Positions 33,896-64,000 of a stretch of DNA of 64,000 nt are shown piece by piece. Made by a program: the position numbers and the translations under genes. Numbering within the stretch: the first letter of the stretch is position 1; each line of letters starts with the position of its first letter. The notes below the pieces were generated by a model, which was given only the letters and a program-made list of their open reading frames with translations, was not told the origin of the DNA and searched no databases. This DNA is from Ischnura elegans (taxonomy: Eukaryota; Arthropoda; Insecta; Odonata; Coenagrionidae), in contig NC_060246.1 in NCBI RefSeq assembly GCF_921293095.1, forward strand, positions 114,184,941 to 114,248,940. Reading direction: 5' to 3'.

Positions 33896-36800
33896 CTGGA
33901 AAGAAAGAAAAGATTGTGTTTGAAAAGATAGAGAAATTTCAAGTCTTCTAACTTCTTTACATAATATATTACACAGTGGCGTAACTATGGGGGAAGAGAG
34001 AATGAGGGGGATAGACCCCCCAAACCCTCAGAGAAATAAAAAATATTAAAATTTATTGTCTACTTTTGACATATAATAACTGCATCTGCTTACAGTTAAA
34101 GATCATTGATCAAAATTATGTAAAATGTATTTCCAGGCATGTCATTTTTCAAAAATTTTCACAGACCTCCCATTGCCCCTCTAGTTAAATCCCCGTCAAA
34201 GCATATTCCTAGCTACACCACTGATACTACAACCTTAGCAAGTCTAATCACTGCCGCTTACTCTATCATATGATATCATGATGAATTTTAGAAGCAAGAG
34301 ATACTACAGCACTAGGAACTCATTATTTAATTTAAACCAACGTAGCTAATATGAAAATGTATTATCGCAATTGGAGTTAAATTGCTATTGATTTGCTGGT
34401 GTCTGGAATACAACATTTACCAGGGATAAGCCCTGAAGAAACACTCACATAATCTAGAATTATGGGGAGAAATCATCTTAATGGAACATTGTTATTGGTT
34501 TATTGGTTTTACTGTTGCACCAATCAATAAAAGAAGTAAAGAATGCTTAATGATTGAAACATCATTTGATAATTCACTAAAAAAAAATTCAAAATTTATT
34601 TCAAGGGAGGATTTTGGACTCAAGGATTCTTTAGAACCTAAAATGTCACCCGAAATCCAATGGTATTTTACTACACATGCTCAAATTTAACATAGACATG
34701 GAGTATCTTACTGAAATCCCTTAATTGCAAAATGTATGCTTCATGTTTTTTTTTAGCAAAAGCATTTTTTTATAAGTGGGTGGTTAAACAATAAGTAGAA
34801 TTTTTTCAGGACTTTTTTTTGGTACTAAAAAAATATCATCATTTTATCCACAGCCACAAAAGCATATTACATTGAGGTTATAAATGTAAATTAAAAGATG
34901 AGAATCTTAATCCATGACACCAGCACGATAGGAAATTTGTAGCATTACTCCGACAATGGTAACACAATTACATTCTAAGTCTATGAAAAAAAAAACTATA
35001 GCATTTATATGTAACAATTACATTTAAAGCTACATTATTTCAATGCATTGCCTATTCCCAGGAGCTGAAAAAAAAGTTTTTAGGCTAGTAAACAATACAC
35101 AGAAGGCCAGGCAGAAATCAGTTCCCATCATCTTAATAGAAAGCAGATCATGACATTCAGTGCAACGTGCTATGACCCACTGAGTGTGTTGTGATCCTAA
35201 ACTTGCCTTCTAACAAAATTAGCCCTTTCTTGCTGAATAGCTGGGAAATGGGAAATAAGCTTTCTAGGTTATGTTATAACTTGGATTCATTGCATTAGAG
35301 ATAGCAATATCATAACATATTACATATATTCCTACACACTGAATATATGCAATCCACAAATTTGGTTTGCACCAACACCTAAGAACACTTAAACATCCAC
35401 TTGTAGCCTGAGTGACAACTAATAGAGAAAATGGGATAAAAAAAGATAGCTATCATAATAAACATCAACATACAGCAGACTCCCGATTATCTGGCTGCAG
35501 TTTATCTGGGTTGCGGATTATCCATGTATGAGTTCACGGTCCTTCGAAGTTTTCTGTGATCTTCATAAAAATATAAAATCGGTCGCAGAAGCACCAAGAT
35601 ATATGCACTTTTTTAAAGACAGCTAATTATTTCCATTATTATCCCCTTATTAAGGGGAATTATTTTATCTACTTGCTGACAAGGAATGTTTCAAGTTTAC
35701 TTGGGCGTCTGCTCTAGCATTGTAGACAACGACCAGCGGCAGGAAAAAAAACTCTTGATTGATTTCAGAACATTCTTCAATGGTTAATCATTCATAAATT
35801 CAGAGAAATTTTACTAAAGATTGTATATTTCACATCGCAAAAGGACAAATATTGCCGTGGCCTCGCATGTGGTTGGATACGGCCCAAGGGAACAGTAGAT
35901 TTCATTGCACTCGAGCCTGTTTATGCTGTTACTAGTCAAAGCCAAACTGGAGAGGAATGGAATAGTAGAAGTGAAAACAGCGGGGGAAGTGGAAGTAGAG
36001 ATAGCATGAGTCATAGCCAGGCACTCGCCTGTGTAGACAATTTGCCTGAAGTCCTAGTTTTCTATAACCGTTACCACATGATGGCGTAATTGCATTCCCG
36101 TTGCCTTCACGGTGGTTCCGTGCTCCTCTTTTCCAAGCATCGCGGTGCGGGATTGCATTCAGTGATTACGGATCTACATCCCACAGGAGTTGCATCCTGG
36201 GCAAATTGTGCAAGACGCGACTACTCGGCATGGTGCCTTTCAGGGTAGTTTCTTACGTCGCGCAGTGGTTTCGAAGCATTCATGTAAACCACTTCTCAGA
36301 ATCCGAGACCTCGCAGCCAAGGATGCGTGGTTTTGGGAAACCAGGTATTACATGAAGCAGTATACAAGTACAATCACGTTATCACCAGGAAAAAGATCGT
36401 GGTCGGGAAGAGAAAGCCCTTAACGATTCCGGAAAGCAATCTAAAGTAATAGGAATGTGCTTAGGTAAAAATAGATTGTTTGATTTACGTACATAATGAA
36501 AATTGCAAGAAGTCAAAGTAAAAATTGGATTATCTGTGTTCTTGGATTATTCGTGCCGCCTCTGCCCATCGTTAGTCTGGATAATCGGGAGTGAGCTGTA
36601 TATCTCAATGCTATATGGCATTGAAATACAGCATTAGTAGAGTTTCCCAAGAATAACAAAATCTTTCAAGCAGCTAGTCAAGCAAGGCATTTTTAATGTT
36701 ATTTTGTAGAATACAATGCCTTCAAATGTTGCTACAGGCAAAAAAATACATAACATTGGATACATCATTCAAAAACTTACGCATAGGAGTGCCCACATGC

Positions 36801-39800: not shown

Positions 39801-42800
39801 TGGAATTTCACTTACCGTTAATACAACAATTGCAGCAAATATAAAAAGCACTGCATACCAGTGATCTATCACCCATTTTTTGAAAGTGGCAATGCTTTCA
39901 TCAGAGAGCAATAGCTTCCTTAAAGTTGCCAATGGTCCAGAAGGATCCACCTAGTAAAAGAGAAAAAATTATTTCAGAACATAGGCACTAATTTAAAGAA
40001 AAAAATGAAATCAAGGAAGATCTTTTAATGCTTATTGGAATTCTAAATATTATTTTAATTTGCCATTATCTATATCGACAAAATTTATGAGACTGAAGTA
40101 CTTTCAGTTGAAAACAAAAAACATCCTTGGTTATTGATGCATGGACATATTTCACATCACGAATCAACAAATATTATGTTTAGCTTGTTGTTTTCAATTA
40201 CTAAATTGTTTTCTGGCATCAAAGGGTGGAATTTTTTTCAGTTATCAGAGTTAAGGGCATATAAATCGAAAGCTTCAAAACTTGAGCCACAAAGATGTAC
40301 TGATTACTTACCAACCATTAACCAAAGGGAAACCAAAAGTTAAACATATAAAAACTAGTCAAATAATATATGAAAATGATAATAGTACTTATTACTTAAT
40401 TAAGAATCTCCAGTTGGTAGGAGTTAATTTACTCGCATTTCTTTCCTACCTATATCTTTTCAAATAAAATTTAACAAAGATCGATCACAGTAAGAAGAAG
40501 AATAGTGTACTTATAATACCAAAAGAAATATTTAACTATTGTTAATAAGGTAAAATACTCAGTGGAGGAATATTTATATCATTATTAGCCTTTTAATACG
40601 TGCCTTGTTGCTCAGGAGGCTAATACACCTGCTACAGTTTAAGAAGGATATCTTAAATTATTATTCCTGAAATATTACGCAAAGCCCCATTAGGTGTACA
40701 AGCTATTGCCTTTTACAATCTAACTATTCAGTATCCATGGGCTGAATCTCTATTGAAAATAAACAAGTATTAGTATAAAAGGAAGGTACTGTTGTTATAC
40801 ATGTATGATAAATTCAAGGGTAGAATTATAATTGTAACTTGTAACACTAGCATACCTCTGTATGTTTACAAAAAAAGCATGTTTCATACCTAATAGAATA
40901 TGATGGAAAGTTAGTCATCATCAAATTGAAACAGGGAGTTACTGGGAAATAAGAAAGAAGGACAGACAGATTGATACAGAGAAAATTTTCTCATACTCAA
41001 GTTTTGCTTACTGCTGGGCAGTAAAGTTATTTAGCAAGCATATCATTCTAAACTATTACATCAAAGGGACATTTACTAACCTCTCGGCACTTTTGGAACA
41101 CATCACAATATCCATTATAATCATTGCAAGGAGTTCCTGGTTTTGCAAACATGTCCGGAATGTCATAAGGAGAAATATTCCAGTCAAAAGAGGACCTAAA
41201 ATGAGAAATGAACATAGAATTTTAGATCAGAAGTAGAAACTTCTCAAAAACATGAATACACCATGGGGTTAAGTACACTGCATTATTGTACACACTTTTT
41301 AGAAGTTTGTGAAAATAGAATGAGGGATAACTTTTTTCCCTATAAAAGCAATAAAAATACTTAGGTATTTGGTATTTACCGATAAAATCATGTTGGAACA
41401 ACTGTTTTATGCAGGTCATTTATTAATCATATTCATGGCAAATAATGTAAAAAAAAACCTGATTATTACAATCAACACTCATGATAATCATGCATTTGAT
41501 TCTTATAGGAGCCTCAAAAGGTTATTAATAACAGAACGTCATGAATGCCAATGCTCAAGGTAGGTGCAGTCTATCAAGTAGGGACTTGTTCTCACAACCT
41601 CAGGATTGTCAGTCCCGTCACCAACAATGCCAGAAAATTAAATTTAAGCATTACTAGCAAAATTATCCTAACCTATCCCACAAGGCACTAAAAAGATTAT
41701 AATTTATGACTCTCTGAGAGGGATATCTAGGAAAGGAGCCTTGGATGTGTAGTGATCCGGAAATGGAGGATTTCCATTTCCAAAATATGCATAAATATGT
41801 TGTTGTGTGACGTCTCAGAATAGCCAGCTGTGACAAACTATGCCTTGGGATTTGCACCTTTTCACTTTCTAGAACGCCTAACCTTCCTCTTCCCCTTCCT
41901 TTCCCCTTCCTCTTGGACGAAAACATCCTGGTTCCTCTTACCTATATAATGGCACGGTGTAGATGCAATTGGTACTCGGGCACTCAACACGGACGCACTC
42001 AGGAACTCACTCAGTAACTCACAGTTGGAGTCGAAGCACGGGCCGTATGGCCCGTGCGACCTAAGCGCCTCGCTATCCACCCGTGCCATCACCGGCAGCT
42101 CCTCTCCTTCCCGAGACTTTTGGTAATGTTCTAAATTTTGGCTATTCTGGACGCACAAATTCATAATTACTTCATGCCTTTTGCTAGAATGGATTTTGAT
42201 ATTGGGTTTTTAAAAGGAAATAAACTTTGGGTAAAAACTTTAAATACTTGTGTGTGATTATTCGCTTCCCGACACCAAGGGCAAGAACCCCCGCAACCCT
42301 TACAATGGTGGCAGCGGTGGGATTGTTTTGCCATAGCCCCCCTGTGGGAGGGAGTGGTAATTATATCCCAAAAGACTGTGGGATTACTGCCTAGGTAGTG
42401 TAAGGCTCATTTATGATCACCTTACACGCGTCGGAACGATAATCACACTCAATTTACATTCTTTGCGTCTCTAGAGTTAATTTTTTGGGTAATAAATTCC
42501 GCGTAATACTATAAATTGCCAGAAAAACTGCATTTGATATGTCAAGAAGCACTTTCTCGGGAAGAAGAGCTTGATGGTAAACGGTGGATGCGAGTGGCAA
42601 TTGCTCGCCCATATATTTTCGCGAGCAACGGTAAAGTCCGGGAGAGCTGCAACCAAAATAGCTGTCATAATAATGCGGTATTTCGGAGGAGGCACCTTTT
42701 CAGACGGACAACGACCGCTGACCAACGCCTTCAGAGCCGGAGGCATCGCAGAGACAAACTGTCGCCGGGATACTTTCACTTCGCTTCCAGAGCGGTGGTG

Positions 42801-45800
42801 TCACCAAGGAAGCAGTGCAAGTAGTTGGCGCAAAGAAGAAAGAAGATCATCACCGACAACGAAGGACAATGGTGATTACGACATTTAATAAGAACTTTGA
42901 ATAGAAAATATCAAGGAACTGATTGCTATGCCTCTTTATGAATTTTCTTGGCCGGTAATTAGATATTAGTTTTCTGAATTATCTTAGTCGATAGTTAGTA
43001 TTAGTAATTTTAAAGCCCCTGTTTGTCCCGAGGAGTATGGGAATCCTCATCAAGTGGAGTAATTGGTCCCTCTGAAACCCGTAAGAGATAGGGCTCGGGT
43101 AATGAGCGAAATCTGGGTAGTTGTTGCTCTAATAATTGTTTCCGATTTAAGTAATATTGAGAATTGAGCATATTGGAACTAAGGTTTGGAACTGAAATGG
43201 TCTAAAGAAGCCGTCGCTGCGTTTGCGACATTGAGGGACTTCTAGAGTGATTGACCTGTACTTCGGTACCTCGATTTCATTGAACCTTTTTTTGCATTCA
43301 AAATCAGTCATGCTTTAGAAGCAAGTATTGGCTCATTAGAATGCCACAAGCCACATGTAGTCACCTGCGCCAGCCGGTAATTAAACAATGCGGGGTGAGA
43401 CTACGGCGCCACCTAAGGGAATGCCTCTTGCTAGTGTTCTAAATATAGTACATATCTCGTTACGTATTTAGTTTAAAGGCTTTAATGGGTTAGCTGATAA
43501 TTGAAATTGGAATTGATATTGCCGCTGAAGGACCGATCTGCAATCGTGAGGCGCGGGTACCTTCCATTGAGCGAGTACAATTTTCCAAATCCCATACATG
43601 CCTGTAAAAACACTATAATGCAGACGCACTGTCTCGTAACCTTTCGGGAGTTGTTAACCTACGCTTGATTTTTGGGGGAATCAAACGTTGATATGGTACG
43701 AACAGGAAAACGATCCCGGGTGGAAAAATGAAGAGAGAGAGAGGGTAGATAGTTGTGATTTTAAAGAGGGAATATGTTTAAAATAAAAAAGGGATATTAA
43801 CAAGGGATGGGTCCCAAGAGTGTGAGGAATTTTCCAAGTCGACCGGGATTATCATAAGGGGTAATTGAAACCATAAATTTAATGACATAATATAGCATAC
43901 GCCGGCTAGGGAAAAGATTAAGGCATTAGTAAAACATATCCTTGAAAATTTTATTGAGCGTAAAAGAGTGAAAAATAACACAAACAATTGGTGTTTAGCG
44001 TGTAATGAGTGAAAGAAAACAAATTGAAGTGTGCCCATGTTGTCCTCATCTTATCCCCCCCTTAAATTCCTCAAGAAAACAGTGAACTGATATTCGCTAC
44101 GGCGACGAATAGTCACTTTGGATCTGTGTGAATAAACAATGGACTTAAAGCACAGCAAAGGAGGGTGATAAAAAGTGGAAAAGTGAAGTGAACATGTGGA
44201 ATAGAAGTGATATTGAAAATTTGAATGTATTTGGTTTTTTTATAGGACTTGACATACTTGTCATTTGCAAACATTTTCTTTCCAATTTACTCTGAATTAT
44301 ATCTTTTTGTGTTGTTTCGTTTTTAGTGATAATAAAAAAAGGGATTGAAAATATAGAAGTGAAACAGAATTAGGAATACGGACGATATAATGGTATTTCT
44401 TTGTTTCCTTGTGTATAAATACTTTTATTTTTTGTTGAATATTGCAATTTAACATGTTTTAAATTTATGTAATTAGCAGTGAATTATTTTGGTGTATAGG
44501 GAAATTTTAATGGTTAATTGTTTTTACAATTGTTTTTTCATTTGTATAAATGTGATCGATCTCGTGAGAGATCAATCAATTTTAATAAAGAAGGGAGTAT
44601 TGTAGTGATCCGGAAATGGAGGATTTCCATTTCCAAAATATGCATAAATATGTTGTTGTGTGACGTCTCAGAATAGCCAGCTGTGACAAACTATGCCTTG
44701 GGATTTGCACCTTTTCACTTTCTAGAACGCCTAACCTTCCTCTTCCCCTTCCTTTCCCCTTCCTCTTGGACGAAAACATCCTGGTTCCTCTTACCTATAT
44801 AATGGCACGGTGTAGATGCAATTGGTACTCGGGCACTCAACACGGACGCACTCAGGAACTCACTCAGTAACTCACAGTTGGAGTCGAAGCTCGGGCCGTA
44901 TGGCCCGTGCGACCTAAGCGCCTCGCTATCCACCCGTGCCATCACCGGCAGCTCCTCTCCTTCCCGAGACTTTTGGTAATGTTCTAAATTTTGGCTATTC
45001 TGGACGCACAAATTCATAATTACTTCATGCCTTTTGCTAGAATGGATTTTGATATTGGGTTTTTAAAAGGAAATAAACTTTGGGTAAAAACTTTAAATAC
45101 TTGTGTGTGATTATTCGCTTCCCGACACCAAGGGCAAGAACCCCCGCAACCCTTTTGTAAGGGTTGCGGGGGTTCTTGCCCTTGGTGTCGGGAAGCGAAT
45201 AATCACACACAAGTATTTAAAGTTTTTACCCAAAGTTTATTTCCTTTTAAAAACCCAATATCAAAATCCATTCTAGCAAAAGGCATGAAGTAATTATGAA
45301 TTTGTGCGTCCAGAATAGCCAAAATTTAGAACATTACCAAAAGTCTCGGGAAGGAGAGGAGCTGCCGGTGATGGCACGGGTGGATAGCGAGGCGCTTAGG
45401 TCGCACGGGCCATACGGCCCGTGCTTCGACTCCAACTGTGAGTTACTGAGTGAGTTCCTGAGTGCGTCCGTGTTGAGTACCAATTGCATCTACACCGCGC
45501 CATTATATAGGTAAGAGGAACCAGGATGTTTTCGTCCAAGAGGAAGGGGAATAGGAAGGTTAGGCGTTCTTGAAAGTGAAAAGGTGCAAATCCCAAGGCA
45601 TAGTTTGTCACAGCTGGCTATTCTGAGACGTCACACAACAACATATTTATGCATATTTTGGAAATGGAAATCTTCCATTTCCGGATCACTACAATACTCC
45701 CTTCTTTATTAAAATTGATTGGTCTCTCACGAGATCTATCACATTTATACAAATGAAAAAGCAATCATAAAAACAATTAACCATTAAAATTCCCCTATAC

Positions 45801-48800
45801 ACCAAAATAATTCACTGCTAATTACATAAATTTTAAACATGTTAAATTGCAATATTCAACAAAAAATAAAAGTATTTATACACAAGGAAACAAAGAAATA
45901 CCATTATATCGTCCGTATTCCTAATTCTGTTTCACTTCTATATTTTCAATCCCTTTTTTTTTATTATCACTAAAAACGAAACAACACAAAAAGAAATAAT
46001 TCAGAGTAAATTGGAAAGAAAAAGTTTATAAATGACAAAAATGCAAGTCCTATTGATTAAAAAAACTAAGTACGTACATATGTTCAATATCACTTCTATT
46101 CCACATGTTCACTTCACTTGTTCACTTTTTATCACCCTCCTTTGCTGTGCTTTAAGTCCATTGTTTATTCACACAGATCCAAAGTGACTATTCGTCGCCG
46201 TAGCGAATATCAGTTCACTGTTTTCTTGAGGAATATGGGGAGGATAAGATGAGGACGACATGGGCACACTTCACTTTGTTTTCTTTCACTCATTACACGC
46301 TAAACACCAATTGTTTGTGTTATTTTTCACTCTTTTACACTCAATAAAATTTTCAAGGATATGTTTTACTAATGCCTTAATCTTTTCCCTAGCCGGCGTA
46401 TGCTATATTATGTCATTAAACTTATGGTTTCAATTACCCCTTATGATAATCCCGTTCAACTTGTAAAATTCCTCACACTCTTGGGACCCATCCCTTGTTA
46501 ATGTCCCCTTTTTACTTTTTAACATATTCCCTCTTACAAAACCACAATTATCTATCCTCTCACTCTCTCTTATTCTCTCTTTTCATTTTTCCACCCGGGA
46601 TCGTTTTCCTGTTCGTACCATATCAACGTTTGATTCCCCCAAAAATCAAGCGTAGGTTAACAACTCCCGAAAGGTTACGAGACAGTGCGTCTGCATTATA
46701 GTGTTTTTACAGGCATGTATGGGATTTGGAAAATTGTACTCGCTCAATTGAAGTTACCCGCGCCTCACGCTTGCGGATCGGTACTTCAGCGAAAATATCA
46801 ATTCCAATTTCAATAATCAGCTAACCCATTAAGGCCTTTAAACTAAATATGTAGCGAGATACTATATTTAGAACACTAGCAAGAGGCATTCCCTTAGGTG
46901 GCGCCGTAGTCTCACCCCGCATTGTTTAATTACCGGCTGGCGCAGGTGACTACATGTGGCTTGTGGCATTCTAATGAGCCAATACTTGCTTCTAAAGCAT
47001 GACTGATTTTGAATGCAAAAAAAGGTTCAATGAAATCGAGGTACCGAAGTACAGGTCAATTACTCTAGAAGTCCCTCAATGTCGCAAACGCAGCGACGGC
47101 TTCTTTAGACCATTTCAGTTCCAAACCTTAGTTTCAATATGCTCAATTCCCAATATTACTTTAATCGGAAACAATTATTAGAGCAACAACTACCCAGATT
47201 TCGCTCATTACCCGAGCCCTATCTCTTACGGGTTTCAGAGGGACCAATTACTCCACTTGATGAGGATTCCCATACTCCTCGGGACAAACAGGGGCTTTAA
47301 AATTACTAATACTAACTATCGACTAAGAAAATTCAGAAAACTAATATCTAATTACCGGCCAAGAAAATTCATAAAGAGGCATAGCAATCATTTCCTTGAT
47401 ATTTTCTATTCAAAGTTCTTATTAAATGTCGTAATCACCATTGTCCTTCGTTGTCGGTGATGATCTTCTTTCTTCTTTGCGCCAACTACTTGCACTGCTT
47501 CCTTGGTGACACCACCGCTCTGGAAGCGAAGTGAAAGTATCCCGGCGACAGTTTGTCTCTGCGATGCCTCCGGCTCTGAAGGCGTTGGTCAGCGGTCGTT
47601 GTCCGTCTGAAAAGGTGCCTCCTCCGAAATACCGCATTATTATGACAGCTATTTTGGTTGCAGCTCTCCCGGACTTTACCGTTGCTCGCGAAAATATATG
47701 GGCGAGCAATTGCCACTCGCATCCACCGTTTACCACCAAGCTCTACTTCCCGAGAAAGTGTTTCATGACCTATCAAATATAGTATTTCTGGCGATTTAAA
47801 GTATTACGCGGAATTTAGTACCCAAAAAATTAGCTCTAGAGACGCAAAGAATGTAAAGTGAGCGTGATTATCGTTCCGACGCGTGTAAGGTGATCATAAA
47901 TGAGCCTTACACTACCTAGGCAGTAATCCCACAGTCTTTTGGGATGTAATTACCACTCCCTCCCACAGGGGGGGCTATGGCAAAACAATCCCACCGCTGC
48001 CACCATTGTAAGGGTTGCGGGGGTTCTTGCCCTTGGTGTCGGGAAGCGAATAATCACACACAAGTATTTAAAGTTTTTACCCAAAGTTTATTTCCTTTTA
48101 AAAACCCAATATCAAAATCCATTCTAGCAAAAGGCATGAAGTAATTATGAATTTGTGCGTCCAGAATAGCCAAAATTTAGAACATTACCAAAAGTCTCGG
48201 GAAGGAGAGGAGCTGCCGGTGATGGCACGGGTGGATAGCGAGGCGCTTAGGTCGCACGGGCCATACGGCCCGTGCTTCGACTCCAACTGTGAGTTACTGA
48301 GTGAGTTCCTGAGTGCGTCCGTGTTGAGTACCAATTGCATCTACACCGTGCCATTATATAGGTAAGAGGAACCAGGATGTTTTCGTCCAAGAGGAAGGGG
48401 AATAGGAAGGTTAGGCGTTCTTGAAAGTGAAAAGGTGCAAATCCCAAGGCATAGTTTGTCACAGCTGGCTATTCTGAGACGTCACACAACAACATATTTA
48501 TGCATATTTTGGAAATGGAAATCTTCCATTTCCGGATCACTACAGATGTAGTGTTGCAGTGAGGGGGGAGGGGTGGGGGGGTTGGGGGTCTGGACCTCCC
48601 CTGAATTACATAAACATGATTACTTTCATTCATCAAAGAAAATAAAATACTGCAGACTCCTGATTATCTGGCTGCAGTGTATCCGTGATGCGGCTTATCT
48701 GTGAATGAGTTTTACACTTCTTTGATATTTTCCTCGATCTATTTATTTAAATTTATTAAAAATTATTCGAAGGAAAAGCACCTGGATATTTTCATTTTAA

Positions 48801-51800: not shown

Positions 51801-54800
51801 CAGTGAAGATGTTATACAATATACAATAATAGACCACTAAACCAAACTTAATATCAAATTATCACAATAAATTTATAATAGGTTTAAAAATAAAGTTGAT
51901 AATATGCAATTATGTACTTGCATTTTGACCACTGGCCACAGCCATTATTCTACCGGAGTTAAACATAAAGAAAAAATAAGCATCCCTAAGGTATCTATGA
52001 TAGAGATGAGCCTCCTTATTACAAAGTGCTTAAACGGGTTGAAATTCAAAGTTCAACTCACAATTGCTATGGCTTAATGTTAAGACAGAGCACCGACTGC
52101 ATTGCCAACAAGTTATCTAACAATAATTGATGTATACTCTGTGAAGGTTTTAGTTGAATCAAGAAATTTTTCCTAGCTTCATCAACTGATAACTGTCTAT
52201 TCTTACGGATGGTACATATAATTTTTATAATCAAATATCTATACTCATATTGACTATAAAGACAGCATGTAAATGTTTTCAGCTCCAAAACCTATGGTAT
52301 AGACCTCAACATAGAGAACTCACACCAAATCAATTATCCTCACCATTAAAAGCTCAATTAAGGTAAATGGAAATCAAATCCACCCTTCATGAACACACCT
52401 GCAATATACATGTACCCTTAAATGATCATTTAAGCCATGAGAACCTAATGGGAAACAGAAGATGGTACCAGTGAAATATGTACTTGGTTTTCCTACATGG
52501 CTTAGGAAGTCTTAACCTGCCACTCAGGAGATTCAAGAAACTTTCATATAGACAAAAATTGGATAGCATTTAGTTTGGACGGCCAGGTCCGTGGGGTTGC
52601 TAATGTATTGGTTTCCTACCCTATGTGTCCAGGTTCAAATCCTGGTGGTAGTGGAGATTTTGCAGACTTCCTGGTCCCTAATTAAGACCTTTACGGAGAG
52701 CACTTCAAGTCCAGTAGTCCATCCATTGAATGGCCACTTAGCTATGATCGCCTAGGCACCCTTCATTTAGAGTAAACTGGTGTCAATGTTGTTTTTCTTT
52801 CCACTCTCTCTCCCCTACTCTAACCTATGCTGCAAATGACCTAAGGTGTCGGTTGCCTCCTCCAAATACCTAACTATCCTAAATATTGTTAAACCAATAA
52901 TATTAATACTCTCTAATGAGCATGTGTGCTTAACATGGACCTAATAATAACCAGATCTGATTGAAATCAGGTCACAACTGAAATAAACTTGGTTTGATTC
53001 ATGCAGTTGGAGGCTGAAGGGGACTTCTTCATGTCCACTTCATTTGGGAGGGTGAGTTGGCGCACTTCCTGCAAAAACCCAACCTGTGATGGACTGCACA
53101 CACTCCTGGGGGTAAGCCTACAAGGCGGCTCATCGGGAGGGGGATAAGTCCTCATTGGGAAGCAGCAAGAATCTCGACAGTCTTCTTCCCAGCCACAATC
53201 ACACTCCTCACCCGACTCCACGACACCATTGCCACAGAGGGCAGCCTGGGGCTCTGTTCATGGAAAGAGTGAGACCATACCAATTAGAATTGGAAACATC
53301 ATGCATCCACTAAAATACAAACACTGAAGTAATGATTGGCATTAAGGCTTGACATAAGGTTAAGCAATATTAATGTCTCAAACATAAATACTCCAAGTAC
53401 TATTAACAATGGATACAAATTCTATGACAAAAAATGCTGAGATTGTTAGAAGTTCCAGCATTGGGGCTGAACTCTTTATTTCATTCAAAATCAAGACAGG
53501 GACAGCTTAAGCGGGGGATAAGGCCACCCCCTGAAATCATGAAAAAATTGAGAAACGGTGATCATTAAGGCAGCTCTTCAATACAAGTTTTTATTACACC
53601 ATTTCACCTTGTCAACAAATAATGTTAATAGATAATTATTGAATATTTATAAGCCATTGTCTAAGAAGATGCATTATCACTGAGAGGCAGTAGTGTAACT
53701 ATGGGTGGGGATTAGGGGATAGATCTCCCCCAAAGCCTTTGAGAAATAAAAAAAATTATTTAAAACTATTCTCTTGTTTTGACGTATAATAACTGCATCT
53801 GCTTAAAGTTGAATTTTAAGTGCCAAAGTCATGCAAAATTTTTTCCAGGCGTGCCATTTTTCAAAACTTTTTGTTGGGGCAAGCAATTTTCCTCCCATTG
53901 CCTGTTGGGGTGGGTCGCCCCCTCAGCACTCCTCAGCACCTCCCCCCAAAGCATATTCCTAGTTAAGCCACTGCTGAGAGGTATTGCATACCTCCAAGGC
54001 TTAGCGGAAAGTTGTGAACTGCTCACCCGAAGCATCGACCTTAATCTGCCCCTGAATCAAGCCACCCTTTTTTCAATCTATTTCTCTTCTTATTCTACCC
54101 TCATTTTTCAATCATAAATTCAATTTTATGGAAATTGGCATTATAAATTAGGAAAAAAAATGACCAGGAATCAATTGATAGAAGAACTTTCAAAGAACAG
54201 TTGAGATGCAAAATAGGTCCCAAACAGAGCTAAAAGAATTTTCCTCACTAACCTGTGAAACATCCTTTAACATTCCGTGCCTTTGCATTCAAAACTGGAT
54301 CAATACTTTTAAGGCTGCATGGAGAAAACTTGTTGTTGTTTTTCTTATCTCCTGAAGTTGCTCTGGCAAACATGATGTAATTGCCATCCTCACCTCCAGG
54401 TGTGCATAGCTCAGGATCATGCTGTAAAGTTAATAACAGATCATCAACCGAAGTAATACATTATGAACACATATTATTATCAATTATGGATGTAAAATCT
54501 GAATTAAATATGTACAGAAAAGGGGATATATGAAATGACAATATAGCGAGTAAGAGTCAGTCTGAAAATTTTTGCTTTGATCCAATTATAGAGAAAATTG
54601 ATGCTGCAAATTAAAGAATTATGTAACTGCTAGAGTTCATTTTGGATGGGATATTTACATACTACCACAATTTTTTTAGTACAAAACAATAAAATCTTCA
54701 AGAGAATTTGAGGTTATGTAAAATTTAAAGAAGATTAATAAGCCATCTACTTCACCGGAAACACTTAGGAATATAAAATATTTATGCATCAAAATGATGC

Positions 54801-57800
54801 ATGAATAAAGATAAGAACTATGCTCTATAACTGTGGTATAACTAGGAATATGCTTTGTGGGGGGGGGGGGGGATAGCAAAAGGGGGCCATGAAAATAAAA
54901 AAAATTGACATGCCTGGAAATACACCATTTTGGCGTATAAAATTTAACTTTAAGCAAATATAACTATTATCAGTCAAAACTAGATAATAGTTTCAAATAA
55001 TTTTTTTTATTTCTCTGAGGTTTTGGGGGGGATCTATCCCCTTATCCCCCCATAGTTATGCCACTGCTCTAACAGTTATTAATGGGTTCTGTCATGTGTA
55101 CTTACTGGAGACCCAAAATTGTGTCCAATTTCATGAGCCAGAGTCACATGAGACACCGCTGGAGGTACATGCTTTCCATAATTGAGGAGAGTAACAATTC
55201 CTGTGTTTAAACTCTTCATGCTGCCCCGATAATGCTGATGGAAGATTAGACAAAATATTGAATAAATTAAAACTATTCCATGCATTTTTTTGTTACCAAT
55301 AAATTAATATTGGAATTCTTATTGGAGAAAGAAAAATTTTCAAAGGCATTTCAGACACTTTCGAATTCAAAAGGAGAAATGATTCAATACATAAAAAAAT
55401 TATAAATACAGGTATGTCCTTGCATACATCAATGGACAAAGTAAACCATTCAAAAATGACAACTTAATACATGAGAATACTTTCTAAAATATTTACCCCA
55501 TTTTTTTCACAAACTCCACCAGCATTTTTCAAATCTCCAGTCCAAGCCAGACCTAATGTGCCCATTTCAAAATCTCTGTACGTGAACATGTATGCCAAAC
55601 AAAATGGATCATAATCTTCCTCTGCAAAAGAAGATATGTGTTATTATTAGCGAGTACAAAAGAAAAGTGGAACAAAACTATGATCAGATTAGCTAAACGA
55701 TAATTTAAAAGTAGTTCTGCAGACATATAAACAACAAAATATTCACAATAGTATAACATTCATGAGGAGTGAGGTTTAGCAAAATCAGAAAATTTTAAAT
55801 TTGTCATTTAATTAGAAAATAAAAAAATAACCAAATATTATCCTAAAAAAATTACTAGATTATAATTCAATTTACCTGAAAACAGTTCTAAGAATTTCTC
55901 AACTCCATAATTGTTTGGAAACCTGTAGGAGGGATCATTGAGGGCATCTGTTGAATGGACCTTTATTCTTTTAATCATGAAGCTTATGTCATCTGGCTTG
56001 CCATCCTGATTGAAGTCTGCAAAAAGAGCCCAAGGTAAGTCATAAAATTATTATGCAATAAATTTTAAAATCTTAAAAAATGTAGAATGCTTAAAAATAT
56101 CATAATAAATAATAAAAAAATAAAATGTTCACTTCCGTCGTAGGCATTAGTTACTAGTTAGTTATGTCGTAGTTATTAGTTTGTCAATTCTAATGAAATA
56201 ACAAAAAGTATCCTTGGCAAAAAACTCAATACAATTTGCATTAAGCTTAGTTTAGGCCATGAAAAGAAATATAAATGCCTTGCAAATACAACTTTTATAG
56301 TGCAAAAAGGCAAAAGGCAGAATTATCTTAGGAAAAAATATTCATTGAGAAACTGGCCTTAAATTTGCCAAAAAGGAGAAAACTGAGATAAAACTCATTA
56401 CATTTGTAAAAAGTGCCAAGCAAACAAAATGGCTCCCCATCCAATACCCAGGACTATGGCCATGTCATTTCGTATTTTGAATCCTAGAAGAAGAAAGAAG
56501 TAATTCACAAGACTTGTTCTTCATTATCGACCAAAAAGAAAGCACGAATTTTCATTGTATGTACTCCCATATTAAAAGTAAATATATAAGAATATGGAAT
56601 ACATATTTTTAAATAATGATCCAAGCACAAAAAATGTACATGCCTTTATTGAAAGTTTGCAGTCAAAAATTACAAAACCGGTGAATTTGTTTTCCAACTA
56701 TATGCAATTTATTTTTAATTTCGAAAACCAGCAACAAGCACTATGAGTGCATCAACGAGAATGGTAATGGTAATTATACAATATTTTATTTGCAAACCAA
56801 AGACCTGACCATCCCTCGCCTTAAGCTGCCACTGATGTGACCTGCGATTTTGCCATTTCAATGTAGGTAGAACGCAGAGGCGAATTGAGGGGGAGGAAGG
56901 GTCGGCCGCCCTTCCTCGTAATTTCTTGAAACCTTTAACGTGGTTCCCAATGAAAGTTTTATTTCACAAGTTTAATGAAATATGTTAAAAATAATTGACA
57001 AATACCAAAAAGCCACTTTTCTACTAATATCACGCCTCGAACGCTGAATCGCTGAGGGGTATTACATACCACGAAGGCGTCGCGGAAACAGATGGACCCC
57101 TCTACCCCAAAATGACAGCCTTAATCCACCCCTGAAATGGGCCGAAGTTGGAAATCACTCCCGTTTACGTTCAATCTCGAATGCACCGCGGAATGTAGGC
57201 GCAGTCTCCGAGGGGCAGATGTGAAAGGGGGGGAAGGGACTCGAGGCGGATTCACAGCGAGACTCACCTGTTGCTCTGTAGATGGAGTTGACCCTCTGCA
57301 CGTGCCTCGTCATCACCTCGATGCACGCCTCCTCCGAGCCGAACTTCTGGAAGAACAAGTGGTCCGCCTGCAGGTACAGCATGCACGTGGTCTTGCGCGG
57401 ATCGATGGCGCCCCCAGTGGCCCAGCGCTTCTTCCGCCGTCCCGTCGACGGAGAAGGCGGCGGCGGCGGGGAGGAGGCCGGACGCCGAGGCGCCCTTCCC
57501 TCCGTCTCGTTCCGTCGCACCGTCAGTCGCACCCGGCTGCGGCGGCTGTTCGCCTCGTACGTGTACAGTCCCCCGCCGTCCGCCTCCTCCTCGCGCCATT
57601 CCTCCTCGCCGTGGTGGTGATGGCCCGCCGAAGCGCCCTCTTCCATGCGGCGGAGGTGCAGCAGGTGCGAGGGGCAGGCCGTCGGCTGATCTGGGGAGAC
57701 CACGTCCGACGCCCGGTAGATGACGGAATGGAAGCCCAAGGAGTCTTCTTCGCCTTCGCCGCCGCTGTCACCTTCCGCCGCCGATGACGCGTCGCCGCCG

Positions 57801-59980
57801 TCCCGCTTCTCTCGCTTGGAGCCGCGGAAGTATCGGCTCGCGGGCTCGATGTAGAACTGTTGGCCGTCGGAGAGCGTGACGGTGCCGTCGAAGAGTCCCT
57901 CCGAAGTTACCACACCCTCTACCAGGGCGTTCTTGTCGTCTGGAAACAAAGGAAAGAGAGGTCATGGCGGGGAAGAATCGAAATGGAGGTCATATCACAT
58001 ACTAAACTCGATCGTTAACGATGAAACTCCCGTGGAATCTTGATGTAATAGAATAAAGGGAAATACAGTTAAATCTCTTCCTTGCGGACATTAATTGCCC
58101 ACGAAAACTTGTCTGTTGGCAAACAAGAATCCAGAAATTCATTTCGGGGGCCCATGTCGTATGTAAGCAAATCGTCCTTTTTAAATGCCTGAAGTGAACA
58201 AACATTGGCACATAGACCACTACATTGAGAAATTAACGTTAAATTGCAGAAAACTAAAGTTATGAACAAACAAGTTATTTCACAAATGATTATTCGCTTA
58301 CTAGAGTTGTGTTCAATCGGTCACACACAATATTTTGGGGAAGGCTGACTAAATTTAGGGAGGCACTAATCTCCTATAGCAGCCACCATAGCTTTCGTCC
58401 CGTATGGGGAGAGAAATTCCCAGGTTTAGGGTGCAAAGTTACTCTCGCGGTTATATACAGGTAGTACGGCCGTGATGGGAAATTCGAAACAGGCCTCTAA
58501 AAGACATTAAATAGCTTTTTGATCTAAAAAAAGGGAAAATTGGTTATTTAGAAGTCTTTAAGCCTCAAAATTTGACCATCAAAAGATGATTTGAACAAAA
58601 ATGAGCCGTCCAAGTCTCGCAACCATCGATCGCATTAATATATGAGCATGGAATAGTTGTTTTAAGCTTTTGGCATGGGTATATGCCAGGCACAGTTAAC
58701 AAAATGGTTACGAAGCCTGGGGCACTGTCCACTCCTCTAGGAAAGCAAGCCCCTAAAGTATTAAGAGGAGAAGAGATCGCTTGGGGCAAGTTGGGTTGCA
58801 TATCATCAAGGATACAGTAAATAAAGGTGACATGTGGCGTGTTGCACCGTCAGCTGAAATCTAAAAAGACGAGTCAAAATGGATTTTTCCACAACTTAAA
58901 TAAGAATGTTTCTACATGTGTGTTCAATATACCATTATATGCACTGCCATTTGCTCTCTTCAACGAATTGCTCACCAATTAGCAGTCGTGTAGTGCATCG
59001 CTAGATATGCTACTACAAATGTGTGGGCGATGGTTTGAGTAATCTTTACGATACGTATTAGCGCAAAGAATTCCACATAAAAAAATTTCAGCTTGTAGCC
59101 GAAACTCATCGTCTCTCAATTACTTCCAGAAAAAATTGGTCTCCTAGAGATAGTGCCCTTTTTGAGAAATATGAGGGTAATAGATTTGATGCTCTTGAAA
59201 ATCTCATCTTATTACCTATTTCACTAATCGTAATTCAGAAGATTGAGTTCATGTGGTTAGAAAAGAATGAACGAAAACAACTTAAGCAACTGAAAACTTG
59301 ATGAAATATTTCAATTTCCAAGTTTCACTCAAGTAAAAAAATCATAATCTGTTTTATACAAAGAGACTGGAAAAAACATTTCACAACGTAGGGCCACTCA
59401 GGAATGTTAACATTGTGTAGCTCAAAATTTACTCGCAATAAGAATTGAAATTATTCGACAAACACGAATACTTACCGCCACGCAAGATCAGAAAAGGGAT
59501 AATCAGTATTGAGAGTAGAAAGAAAAGCTAAAGGAGGGAGAGCTTATGATCGCAGGAAAGAAATTCACACTAAACCTTTTCGACGCAAGCAAGAATACTC
59601 CTCACCACTTTCAAAGGAAGAGTGTTCTTATATGGGAATTGAATCGTGAAATTAATCCCCCAAAGATCTAATTTCCAAGATAGAACGGAGTTCTTCGGAC
59701 ACATCTTTCCCGTTTAACGAAGCCACATTACCTGGAAGCCGTGATTAGGGCTGAATTCACTGGGGTCAAACCACATCCTTTCAGAGTTAATCTGGTGGGA
59801 AGGAAGTGATACTCATTGACTGGGGAGATTGGTTCTCCATTAGGGGCGTACTCACCTTCCAGCGACCCAGAATAAATGCTGGTGGAGGGGTCAAAGAGCA
59901 CCCTCCGCCCGTCGCTACCCTCGATCAGGACGTCCTCCGTCATTAGGCTGCGGTCGGGCCTCAGGTGCATCTTAAATACC
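32456..59980 (-). CDS. kuz: Kuzbanian / ADAM10 metalloprotease (split gene, 5' exons beyond window)
   Basis: Membrane-anchored zinc protease of the ADAM10 group, the enzyme that sheds Notch, Delta and other surface proteins. Twelve exons join in a single frame of 1171 codons plus stop, with phases agreeing at every junction: 59856-59980, 57268-57939, 55876-56016, 55497-55621, 55106-55234, 54253-54421, 53084-53253, 50918-51085, 50290-50417, 41081-41195, 39816-39950, 32456-33895. In order they encode the prodomain with a Cys-switch-like TACPSH, a furin site RRKKR (residues about 209-213), the catalytic domain with [12 protein letters not shown] (zinc ligands at about 388, 392 and 398), disintegrin ([12 protein letters not shown]), cysteine-rich domain, one membrane span and a 479-residue tail. 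The signal peptide and first prodomain exon were not found up to 64000. The paralogue Kuzbanian-like is an alternative, but the [15 protein letters not shown] and membrane-proximal motifs favour ADAM10/kuz. Confidence 0.93.
33974..34223. mobile_element. hAT-type MITE
   Basis: Ends CAGTGGCGTAACTATGG and (reversed) CAGTGGTGTAGCTAGG. Flanking ATATTACA (33966-33973) and ATACTACA (34224-34231) match at 7 of 8 positions. Contains AACTGCATCTGCTTA shared with the copy at 53688. Confidence 0.85.
35473..36598. mobile_element. pogo/Tigger-type non-autonomous element, copy 1
   Basis: Ends CAGCAGACTCCCGATTATC and (reversed) CAGCTCACTCCCGATTATCC, each flanked by TA, as is normal for pogo-type elements. 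A second copy lies at 48650-49750, same orientation, roughly 75 to 80 % identical by eye. No intact transposase. Confidence 0.85.
37228..37366. repeat. Foldback with 41-bp arms
   Basis: Arms 37228-37268 and 37326-37366 are near-perfect reverse complements (GGAAGAGTTCTCGGGTTTCC against its complement with few mismatches). The 57-bp loop contains TGACGTTTCGAAGGCTAAG and CATCGTCTTCAAGGTG. It resembles short repeats seen in many animal genomes, possibly Penelope-related; this is inference. Confidence 0.75.
38700..38890 (+). pseudogene. LINE reverse transcriptase fragment
   Basis: Plus-strand reading [20 protein letters not shown] is a damaged RQGCPLSPLLFN box. It is followed by [11 protein letters not shown] and, after a frame shift, LADDQ, the YADD-box position. 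Short, decayed. Confidence 0.6.
39816..39950 (-). CDS. kuz: kuz membrane-proximal and transmembrane exon
   Basis: Encodes [20 protein letters not shown] and then [20 protein letters not shown], matching the VDADGPLARLKK and AEWIVAHWWAVLL segments of ADAM10. The hydrophobic run is the single membrane span and continues a few residues into the last exon. Donor GTAAGTG. Confidence 0.95.
39951..41080 (-). other. kuz intron between transmembrane and cysteine-rich exons
   Basis: 1.1 kb of AT-rich intron with no recognisable repeat or coding structure. Confidence 0.7.
41081..41195 (-). CDS. kuz: kuz cysteine-rich exon 2
   Basis: Encodes [20 protein letters not shown] followed by CRE. This matches PGSPCNDFRGYCDVFMRCR of ADAM10. 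The acceptor is TTTTAG and the donor is GTTAGT. The retroelement-filled intron lies on its 5' side. Confidence 0.93.
41748..42304 (+). repeat. LTR 1 (5' LTR of copy 1)
   Basis: 557 bp, TGTAGTGATCCGG...CCCTTACA. Contains TATATAAT at 41943-41950 as likely TATA box and AATAAA at 42219-42224 as likely poly(A) signal. Has the 9-bp CGGGCACTC segment absent from LTR 3 and 4. Also a short palindrome GCACGGGCC/GGCCCGTGC near 42038. Confidence 0.9.
42305..42322 (+). other. Primer-binding-site candidate of copy 1
   Basis: ATGGTGGCAGCGGTGGGA immediately downstream of the 5' LTR, the position where reverse transcription would be primed by a tRNA. The tRNA was not identified. Confidence 0.6.
44601..45154 (+). 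repeat. LTR 2 (3' LTR of copy 1)
   Basis: Nearly identical to LTR 1, including the 9-bp CGGGCACTC segment. Ends CGCAACCCTT at the palindrome centre, lacking the final ACA. Confidence 0.9.
45156..45693 (-). repeat. LTR 3 (3' LTR of copy 2)
   Basis: 538 bp, reversed TGTAGTGATCC...CCCTTACA. Starts one base after LTR 2 ends. Pairs with LTR 4 in length and in both indels. Confidence 0.9.
48007..48544 (-). repeat. LTR 4 (5' LTR of copy 2)
   Basis: 538 bp; same indel pattern as LTR 3. Its outer U3 end (CACTACA on plus) is followed by GATG at 48545-48548, matching GATG at 41744-41747 before LTR 1. Confidence 0.9.
48650..49750. mobile_element. pogo/Tigger-type non-autonomous element, copy 2
   Basis: Ends CTGCAGACTCCTGATTATC and (reversed) CACCATACTCCCGATTATCC, flanked by TA at 48648-48649 and 49751-49752. 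Homologous along its length to 35473-36598. It interrupts the hAT MITE. Confidence 0.85.
50290..50417 (-). CDS. kuz: kuz cysteine-rich exon 1
   Basis: Encodes [20 protein letters not shown] and then CELCCKM, matching CAGSICEKYGLEECTC and CHVCCMKK of ADAM10. Leaves in phase 2, completed by the G of the next exon 9.1 kb away. Confidence 0.92.
50418..50917 (-). other. kuz intron, 500 bp
   Basis: Between the disintegrin and cysteine-rich exons; AT-rich, nothing recognisable. Confidence 0.7.
50918..51085 (-). CDS. kuz: kuz disintegrin exon 2
   Basis: Encodes [20 protein letters not shown] and then [10 protein letters not shown], matching GPCCTAQC...KCRDDSDC...ICNG of ADAM10. Phase 0 on both sides; acceptor CCTCAG, donor GTGAGTG. 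Confidence 0.93.
51086..53083 (-). other. kuz intron, 2.0 kb
   Basis: Separates the two disintegrin exons. Contains a SINE at 52574-52800; the rest is AT-rich without recognisable features. Confidence 0.7.
52574..52800 (+). repeat. tRNA-derived SINE
   Basis: tRNA-like head: CCGTGGGGTTGCTAATG (A-box region) and CCAGGTTCAAATCCTGG, a well-formed T arm with B box. The body follows with a CCATTGAATGGCCACTTAGC segment. No clear tail or target duplication. Confidence 0.65.
53084..53253 (-). CDS. kuz: kuz disintegrin exon 1
   Basis: Encodes [20 protein letters not shown] and then CRDSCCF and SVCSPSQ. The Cys spacing is that of the ADAM10 disintegrin domain. Donor GTTGGG is weaker than the others but phase 0 agrees with the next exon, which starts GPCC. 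Confidence 0.93.
53497..54054. mobile_element. hAT-type MITE (outer, interrupted)
   Basis: Ends CAGGGACAGCTTAAG and (reversed) CAGGGGCAGATTAAGG. Flanks AATCAAGA (53489-53496) and AATCAAGC (54055-54062) agree at 7 of 8 positions. Without the inner element it is about 265 bp. Its interior near the right end resembles the MITE at 56875. Confidence 0.8.
53688..53973. mobile_element. hAT-type MITE (inner) with perfect TSD
   Basis: Ends CAGTAGTGTAACTATGGG and (reversed) CAGTGGCTTAACTAGG. CTGAGAGG is repeated exactly at 53680-53687 and 53974-53981. Same family as 33974-34223 and 54831-55066. Confidence 0.9.
54253..54421 (-). CDS. kuz: kuz catalytic-domain exon 4 (third zinc ligand, Met-turn)
   Basis: Starts HDPELC, completing HExxHxxGxxHD. 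Continues [18 protein letters not shown] and [10 protein letters not shown], equal to the ADAM10 Met-turn region [13 protein letters not shown]. Acceptor TTACAG, donor GTTAGT. Confidence 0.95.
54422..55105 (-). other. kuz intron splitting the zinc motif
   Basis: 684-bp intron between [10 protein letters not shown] and HD. Carries the MITE at 54831-55066 close to the upstream exon; otherwise unremarkable. Confidence 0.75.
54831..55066. mobile_element. hAT-type MITE
   Basis: Inverted relative to 53688: left end CTGTGGTATAACTAGG, right end reversed CAGTGGCATAACTATGGG, with CTCAGAGAAATA and a long G run. Flanks CTCTATAA and CTCTAACA agree partly. It ends only 40 bp from the zinc-site exon. Confidence 0.75.
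55106..55234 (-). CDS. kuz: kuz catalytic-domain exon 3 (zinc site, first part)
   Basis: Encodes [30 protein letters not shown] and IGHNFGSP. The first two zinc-binding His residues and the catalytic Glu lie in HEIGH. The exon ends in phase 0 right before the third zinc ligand, which is the first codon of the next exon. Confidence 0.95.
55497..55621 (-). CDS. kuz: kuz catalytic-domain exon 2
   Basis: Encodes [26 protein letters not shown] and GGVCEKNG, closely matching the ADAM10 CLAYVFTDRDF and LGLAWV segments. Donor GTAAAT directly after AATGGG. Confidence 0.93.
55876..56016 (-). CDS. kuz: kuz catalytic-domain exon 1
   Basis: Acceptor TTTGCAG, donor GTAAAT. Encodes [20 protein letters not shown] and later [11 protein letters not shown], matching the ADAM10 catalytic-domain segments with ISFMVKRIRI and [10 protein letters not shown]. 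Enters and leaves in phase 1. Confidence 0.92.
56017..57267 (-). other. kuz intron, 1.25 kb
   Basis: Lies within the catalytic domain. Holds the MITE at 56875-57134; the remaining AT-rich part shows nothing recognisable. Confidence 0.7.
56875..57134. mobile_element. hAT-type MITE
   Basis: Ends CAGAGGCGAATTGAGGGGG and (reversed) CAGGGGTGGATTAAGGC. It shares the GGTATTxCATACC and AAGGC blocks with the right part of 53497-54054. No matching target duplication. Confidence 0.65.
57268..57939 (-). CDS. kuz: kuz exon: rest of prodomain, furin site, start of protease domain
   Basis: The 672-base exon encodes residues 42-266. It begins [11 protein letters not shown] with a [13 protein letters not shown] segment typical of ADAM prodomains. 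TACPSH at about residue 129 is the likely Cys-switch. A family-untypical insertion follows (Gly/Glu-rich, HHHH, then Arg- and Pro-rich). [11 protein letters not shown] is the proprotein convertase site, and [18 protein letters not shown] starts the catalytic domain. The exon is strikingly GC-rich compared with its surroundings. Confidence 0.93.
57940..59855 (-). other. kuz prodomain intron, 1.9 kb
   Basis: Between the two visible prodomain exons. No repeat or coding structure recognised. Confidence 0.65.
59856..59980 (-). CDS. kuz: kuz prodomain exon (first visible)
   Basis: Acceptor TTCGCAG before 59980, donor GTGAGT after 59856. Reads [20 protein letters not shown] and then a YSGSLE segment. 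This corresponds to the FNLRMKRDTSLF and IYTGH part of ADAM10 prodomains. It ends in phase 1 and joins the next exon as an Asp codon. Confidence 0.85.
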
Positions 59981-63411: not shown

Positions 63412-64000
63412 TCAAGGGACTTCCACCAATATCATCATCTTGTGGTGTTCTGCCCGTCGGCATGTCCCCCGCGCCAATGCTGTCTTCCATTCCCTTCTGT
63501 CTCCGGCCATCTCCTTGAACTCTACATATCTTCCAATTTTTATGTTGTCAATGAATTTCAGTCTTCTCCTTCCCTTTCTTCTGACCCCTTCCACCGATCC
63601 CTCCAAAGCTACTTTCAAAATCCCTCTCATAAAATGTCCCAGCCAGTTACCCTTCCTTTGATTTATTTTGTCCATCAACGTTCTTTCCTCATCTATCCTA
63701 TTTAACACTTGCTTATTCCTAACTCGATCCGTCCACCGTATTCCCTCCATCTTCCTCCAAACCCACATCTCAAACGCCGCGATCCTGTCCCTGTCTCTCT
63801 TCCCCATCGTCTAAGTCTCACATCCATACATAAACACACTCCACACATAACATTTCACCAATCTCTTCCTCAATTTTAATTCGAGTGCCTTGTTACACAA
63901 GGCTCTTTTCTTCTTCTTGAAAACTTCTTTCGCCATTCCTATCCTTTTTTTCACCAATGAGCAATGGTTAAATGAGAATTGAGGTATCTCATGGGTAATT
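63412..64000 (-). pseudogene. LINE reverse transcriptase C-terminus (broken, reaches window edge)
   Basis: Minus-strand reading: LRKRLVKCYVWSVFMYGCET, a stop in place of Trp, then RDRIAAFEMWVWRKMEGIRW, TDRVRNKQVLNRIDEERTLM and INQRKGNWLGHFMR. This is the standard C-terminal block of the LINE family also found at 10830-12060. The premature stop and the missing 5' part mark it as a fragment. Confidence 0.85.

Follow-up and report, generated by a model that had tools for sequence, protein, structure and literature searches.

In the 64-kb stretch of Ischnura elegans contig NC_060246.1 analysed here (the window; assembly GCF_921293095.1, positions 114,184,941 to 114,248,940, with coordinates below counted from its first nucleotide), a palindrome of ~6.8 kb at 41748-48544 consists of two full-length long terminal repeat (LTR) elements that lie tail-to-tail and are fused at their U5 (unique 5') ends. 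Element A (41748-45154, plus strand) and element B (45156-48544, minus strand) are members of one non-coding LTR-retrotransposon family. Two elements, outer U3 (unique 3') ends, a single 4-bp repeat and the sequence of the junction are directly visible, and the arrangement is most readily explained if two complementary DNAs (cDNAs) were integrated together through their U3 ends and were end-joined at their U5 ends, an origin that we regard as probable. The first-pass annotation of the window had described the two arms, their orientation, the four LTRs, the outer GATG pair and the inner junction, and sequence comparison reproduced each of these features at the same coordinates.

The tetranucleotide GATG occurs on both sides of the pair, each copy abutting the TG with which the outer LTR begins, and is absent from the inner junction; the probability that two random 4-mers drawn from the window agree is ~0.0053. 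Target site duplications around each single element were not found, GATG being confined to the two outer edges, and thus a single duplication encloses two elements, as expected of a jointly integrated cDNA dimer. Because the primer-binding site follows LTR1 and LTR4, and the polypurine tract precedes LTR2 and LTR3, the outer ends of both A and B are the U3 ends of 5' LTRs.

Two distinct elements, probably joined at cDNA ends

Comparison of the LTRs with the internal regions indicates that the palindrome contains two distinct elements and is not an inverted copy of a single one. One of 554 aligned sites differs between LTR1 and LTR2, and one of 538 between LTR3 and LTR4, whereas the internal regions of A and B display 70 substitutions in 2289 aligned sites (~3%), an excess over the 2/1092 within LTR pairs (Fisher P 3.6e-10). 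As the internal divergence of A and B exceeds the divergence of each element's own LTRs, the pair would not represent an inverted copy of one inserted element, which bears out the earlier proposal of two distinct elements. The LTRs of A differ from those of B by 3 to 5 substitutions across 535-538 sites, with 19 gap columns in the alignment, or 22 in comparisons that include LTR2, which lacks its last 3 bases. The first-pass annotation had also drawn attention to a segment and a longer C/T tract shared by LTR1 and LTR2. Both exist, although the segment, which is missing from LTR3 and LTR4, is 8 bp in length and not 9 bp as had been stated, while the C/T tract is 11 bp longer in LTR1 and LTR2 than in LTR3 and LTR4. 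Since 11 bp corresponds to one unit of an 11-bp tandem repeat, the length of the tract is by itself a weak marker of two distinct elements, and it is the internal differences that carry the argument. The one difference in each LTR pair indicates that each element underwent its own reverse transcription, and the ages of the two elements are compatible. That the two pairs have diverged equally agrees with simultaneous insertion, although a comparison based on one difference per pair has little power.

The inner junction points to the ends of linear cDNA. In both A and B a single base, A, separates the final CA of the LTR from the TGG of the primer-binding site. The first base copied in cDNA primed by transfer RNA (tRNA) adjoins the primer, whose CCA end pairs with TGG; thus, the one-base spacer indicates that the cDNA of this family extends one base past the LTR at its U5 end. 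The junction itself reads CCCTT-TTGTAAGGG. When possible solutions were enumerated, allowing 0-14 bp to be trimmed from each end and 0-5 bases to be inserted, the sole solution with no inserted base joined A, minus 4 bp (the terminal ACA and the spacer), to the whole of B with its spacer. It had been noted previously that the junction comprises 1 bp, that LTR2 lacks its final ACA and that there is no inner duplication, all of which is correct. The T at 45155, which had been taken as a 1-bp filler, would be better read as the base expected at the unprocessed U5 cDNA end of B, because in A as in B the LTR and the primer-binding site are one base apart. Linear cDNA that has yet to integrate still carries the spacer base, whereas the outer end of an integrated element does not, and thus the presence of this base points to a cDNA end. 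Indeed, the junction displays a cDNA-end signature, consisting of one base, and no chromosomal flank, features that fit the end-joining of linear cDNA ends and not a join made by integrase. An inner joint created by integrase, in which one cDNA attacked the other, was considered and rejected, as strand transfer would start at CA whereas the end of B carries a base beyond it.

These data suggest the following sequence of events. Two RNAs of one non-autonomous family, probably packaged in one particle, would each have been reverse transcribed to a full-length linear cDNA by the proteins of an autonomous partner, whose participation we infer because the elements contain no recognisable protein. 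Integrase may then have engaged the U3 ends of the two cDNAs and inserted both at one target, generating the single 4-bp GATG duplication. The two U5 ends, unused by integrase, would have been end-joined, B contributing its complete end, unprocessed last base included, and A an end shortened by 4 bp. Such a single-event insertion would imply an original empty site, CCTTGGATGTAGTGTTGC, with one GATG. The first-pass annotation had proposed that the cDNAs were joined at their U5 ends and then integrated as a unit. Two elements within one shared duplication are upheld, and the junction base strengthens the case for the joining of cDNA ends; the order is not upheld, since joint U3 integration followed by repair of the U5 ends leaves the identical sequence. 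U5 joining may have occurred before integration, producing a palindromic linear dimer, or after it, through repair of free ends, and both routes yield one and the same product.

It should be emphasized that several points weigh against the joint integration of two cDNAs. A and B resemble each other more closely in their LTRs than in their internal regions (3 to 5 differences in 535-538 sites against 70/2289), and the internal differences are clustered, which indicates that the two source copies have had a complicated history. Indeed the 344 nucleotides at 42575-42918 are identical in A and B, and none of 2000 randomisations, in each of which 82 sites were placed at random, produced a gap of this length. 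The clustering could reflect a mosaic history, or constraint on a conserved stretch. A weak point of the spacer argument is that it concerns a single base, with a chance of about one in four that a random filler would be the same. In addition, a review describes the removal of two terminal nucleotides before integration, compared with the one-base spacer in this family (PMC5408687).

Alternative origins of the palindrome

It could be argued that the pair arose through two successive insertions at the same GATG, in which A inserted first, B entered A's right GATG in the reverse orientation, and the centre of the palindrome was later trimmed. This would produce the correct outer edges and orientation, central deletion is common in long palindromes, and the LTR differences do not separate two events in time. 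Sequential insertion, however, predicts CCCTTACA-GATG-TGTAAGGG at the centre, from which the observed junction requires the loss of 7 bp and the gain of 1, and demands that the same 4-bp site was struck twice independently. A preference for palindromic 4-bp targets is described for some Drosophila elements (PMC5408687), whereas GATG is non-palindromic. We therefore view successive insertions as unlikely.

An assembly error in which two loci, each with one element, were joined at the element ends is also an unlikely explanation. Repeats are the places where assemblies fail, but the difference between the arms (70/2289 in the internal regions) rules out a fold-back read of a single molecule. The same 4-mer, moreover, stands at the exact element ends on both flanks, and the join sits at the position of a cDNA end. 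Inverted copies would also result if two insertions of the family at separate places had been brought together by a chromosomal inversion or some other rearrangement. Recombination between inverted LTRs, however, would not leave four near-whole LTRs that meet at their ends, and breakpoints lying exactly at the U5 ends, together with matching outer GATG motifs, would be a coincidence, making this route improbable.

Integrase-independent capture of two cDNAs, through end-joining at an ordinary break in the chromosome, finds a parallel in yeast, in which breaks take up pieces of retrotransposon cDNA; of ~33,000 such insertions, nearly 4,000 contained between two and four fragments, of various origins, joined to one another (PMC10802722). 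The outer ends of the palindrome, in contrast, are exact U3 termini with a 4-bp repeat, as left by integrase and not expected from break repair, and capture at a break is thus very improbable. Inverted duplication of one element after insertion, although a simple source of palindromes, is rejected as scarcely credible, since it is contradicted both by the divergence of the internal regions relative to the LTR pairs (70/2289 against 2/1092, Fisher P 3.6e-10) and by the two indels that separate the LTR pairs, unless gene conversion homogenised the LTR pairs within each arm only.

Features of the elements and of the window

Each arm contains two direct LTRs with TG...CA ends, LTR2 falling short by only the terminal ACA, and in both arms the position and sequence of a primer-binding site after the 5' LTR and a polypurine tract before the 3' LTR are as in LTR retrotransposons (Table 1). 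The primer-binding site of A may resemble the 3' end of a tRNA-Leu. Gag-pol coding capacity was not found in A or B, as the longest of the 65 stop-to-stop frames of at least 50 amino acids that overlap the pair encodes 116 amino acids. Six of these 65 frames were scanned against Pfam, of which four gave no match and two only matches below the cut-off (E 0.021 and 0.04); the internal region of A contained no Pfam match above the cut-off in its four scanned frames. Nor was an autonomous partner found, and no coding sequence was recognised that would supply the reverse transcriptase and integrase characteristic of Ty3/Gypsy (Metaviridae). On the basis of the short longest frame and the lack of Pfam matches above the cut-off in the six frames, the family is taken as non-coding and non-autonomous. 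The internal regions of A (42935-43005) and B (47305-47375) each contain a 36-bp tandem repeat in two copies.

Table 1. Positions in the window of the components of the two fused elements and their flanking duplication
Feature	Position	Strand	Remark
Target site duplication GATG, left	41744-41747		sequence; abuts TG of LTR1
LTR1, 5' LTR of A, 557 bp	41748-42304	+	TG...CA
One-base spacer (A) between LTR1 and primer-binding site	42305	+	
Primer-binding site of A	42306-42323	+	begins TGG; position and sequence
Internal region of A, 2296 bp	42305-44600	+	
Polypurine tract of A	44587-44597	+	
LTR2, 3' LTR of A, 554 bp	44601-45154	+	without terminal ACA
Junction base T	45155	-	same as B's spacer between LTR and primer-binding site; read as unprocessed U5 end of B
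LTR3, 3' LTR of B, 538 bp	45156-45693	-	
Polypurine tract of B	45697-45707	-	
Internal region of B, 2313 bp	45694-48006	-	
Primer-binding site of B	47988-48005	-	
One-base spacer of B between LTR4 and primer-binding site	48006	-	
LTR4, 5' LTR of B, 538 bp	48007-48544	-	
Target site duplication GATG, right	48545-48548		sequence

No other copies of the element family were detected in the rest of the 64-kb window, in which two 26-nucleotide matches were at chance level (E 0.18). Scans of the window with Rfam, at the gathering threshold, and for tRNAs were both empty. Exact LTR and primer-site patterns had no match in viral (two patterns) or prokaryotic (one pattern) contigs, as would be anticipated for an animal element; the result has little weight given that the patterns were exact and the contigs viral and prokaryotic.

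The right flank of the pair (48545-48553) reads GATGTAGTG, and the target contains TGTAGTG, identical to the first seven bases of the LTR, which creates a small inverted repeat with the end of LTR4. The heptamer occurs seven times on the plus strand and four times on the minus strand of the window, LTR starts included. A role for this match was considered, but the fold is weak (z -1.06) and it is left as a coincidence.

A second repeat occupies 35467-36601 and recurs in the right flank of the palindrome from about 48630-48644, with 824 of 1163 aligned columns identical; the alignment to the flank starts at 48644, or at 48630 as an ungapped match of 79%. The repeat has short inverted ends, ACTCC(C/T)GATTATC and GATAATCGGGAGT, and is probably a DNA transposon. 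It was tried as an empty site for the insertion, but the aligned repeat begins ~80-95 bp to the right of the pair and does not span the insertion site. Another repeat family is represented by a 121-nucleotide inverted repeat (53707-53827 and 54929-55049), the copies of which are 84% complementary, lie 1.1 kb apart and are partly shared with 34035-34131.

Two open reading frames on the minus strand lie elsewhere in the window. In the frame at 57155-57949, residues 185-232, in the C-terminal part, match ADAM10 in three sequences of solved structures (best E 1.1e-07), which suggests an animal host. The frame at 63412-63807 encodes 131 amino acids, and its only Pfam match at E <=0.1 falls below the family cut-off; we take it to resemble the end of a reverse transcriptase of the long interspersed nuclear element (LINE) type.

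Significance and relation to known systems

If two cDNAs were indeed inserted together, a finished genome would record how many cDNAs a retrotransposon particle produces and which ends integrase pairs. The scar of two-donor integration would be a single target duplication combined with a U5-U5 joint on the inside at which an unprocessed base survives, and tail-to-tail or head-to-head pairs within one target duplication and with unprocessed inner ends could be counted across a genome. It is possible, though we advance this only tentatively, that two-donor integration operates in the animal germ line, where particles with two finished cDNAs would insert these by U3 and U3 while host repair joins the other ends. 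Two-donor integration would also seed ready-made hairpin loci that could silence their own family. Indeed, a long palindrome with an inward-pointing 5' LTR at each outer edge is, judged from its sequence, a plausible source of double-stranded RNA directed against the family from which it derives. Mu killer, an inverted duplication of a maize transposon, reportedly starts silencing, and a palindromic pair of elements is said to be capable of setting off this response. Mu killer, however, derives from a DNA transposon, whereas A and B are LTR elements.

Head-to-head or tail-to-tail insertions have been raised as a possible cause of LTR hairpins (PMC11624286). Multimers of Ty1 cDNA, and mobility through them, are described in yeast (PMC4378997, PMC5371812, PMC7524711), and the resulting arrays resemble the A/B pair in that two or more retrotransposon cDNAs are inserted into the genome together. 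In contrast with the A/B pair, the Ty1 multimers are tied to recombination or to lost cDNA degradation (Rad52, Sgs1, Rad27), and an inverted U5-U5 dimer does not feature in the portions of these reports on which this comparison draws. A description of a tail-to-tail pair of LTR retrotransposons within one target duplication was not found among titles and abstract openings, a scope that leaves out key older Ty1 papers, and we do not claim that such a pair is absent from print.

The formation of 2-LTR circles by end-joining of linear retrotransposon DNA has been described (PMC10959353, PMC4751563), although the yeast data of the latter study showed no sign of it. Such circles resemble the A/B pair in that host repair ligates the ends of linear cDNA (PMC4751563, PMC10959353). 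They differ in that the U5 end is joined to the U3 end of the same molecule and the product is circular, whereas in the palindrome U5 is joined to the U5 of another molecule and the product is chromosomal. Autointegration, which generates inverted 2-LTR circles, also derives an inverted LTR arrangement from cDNA (PMC4751563). These products, however, are made by integrase within one cDNA, while the A/B junction retains a base beyond CA that is unexpected from strand transfer.

The pairing of like ends is biochemically reasonable, because the structure of a Rous sarcoma virus (RSV) intasome, assembled on a gain-of-function U3-end oligonucleotide, contains two separate viral DNA molecules in each complex, and such complexes perform concerted integration (PMC7955051). 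Concerted two-donor integration in vitro thus resembles the proposed origin of the palindrome, as two DNA molecules contribute one U3 end each to one complex (PMC7955051). The in vitro reaction, in contrast, uses purified protein and short DNA, whereas the A/B pair would have arisen from full-length elements in a living genome. While cDNA multimers and end-joined cDNA are therefore known already, what would be new is an inverted pair that was integrated by like ends and keeps an unprocessed base at its joint.

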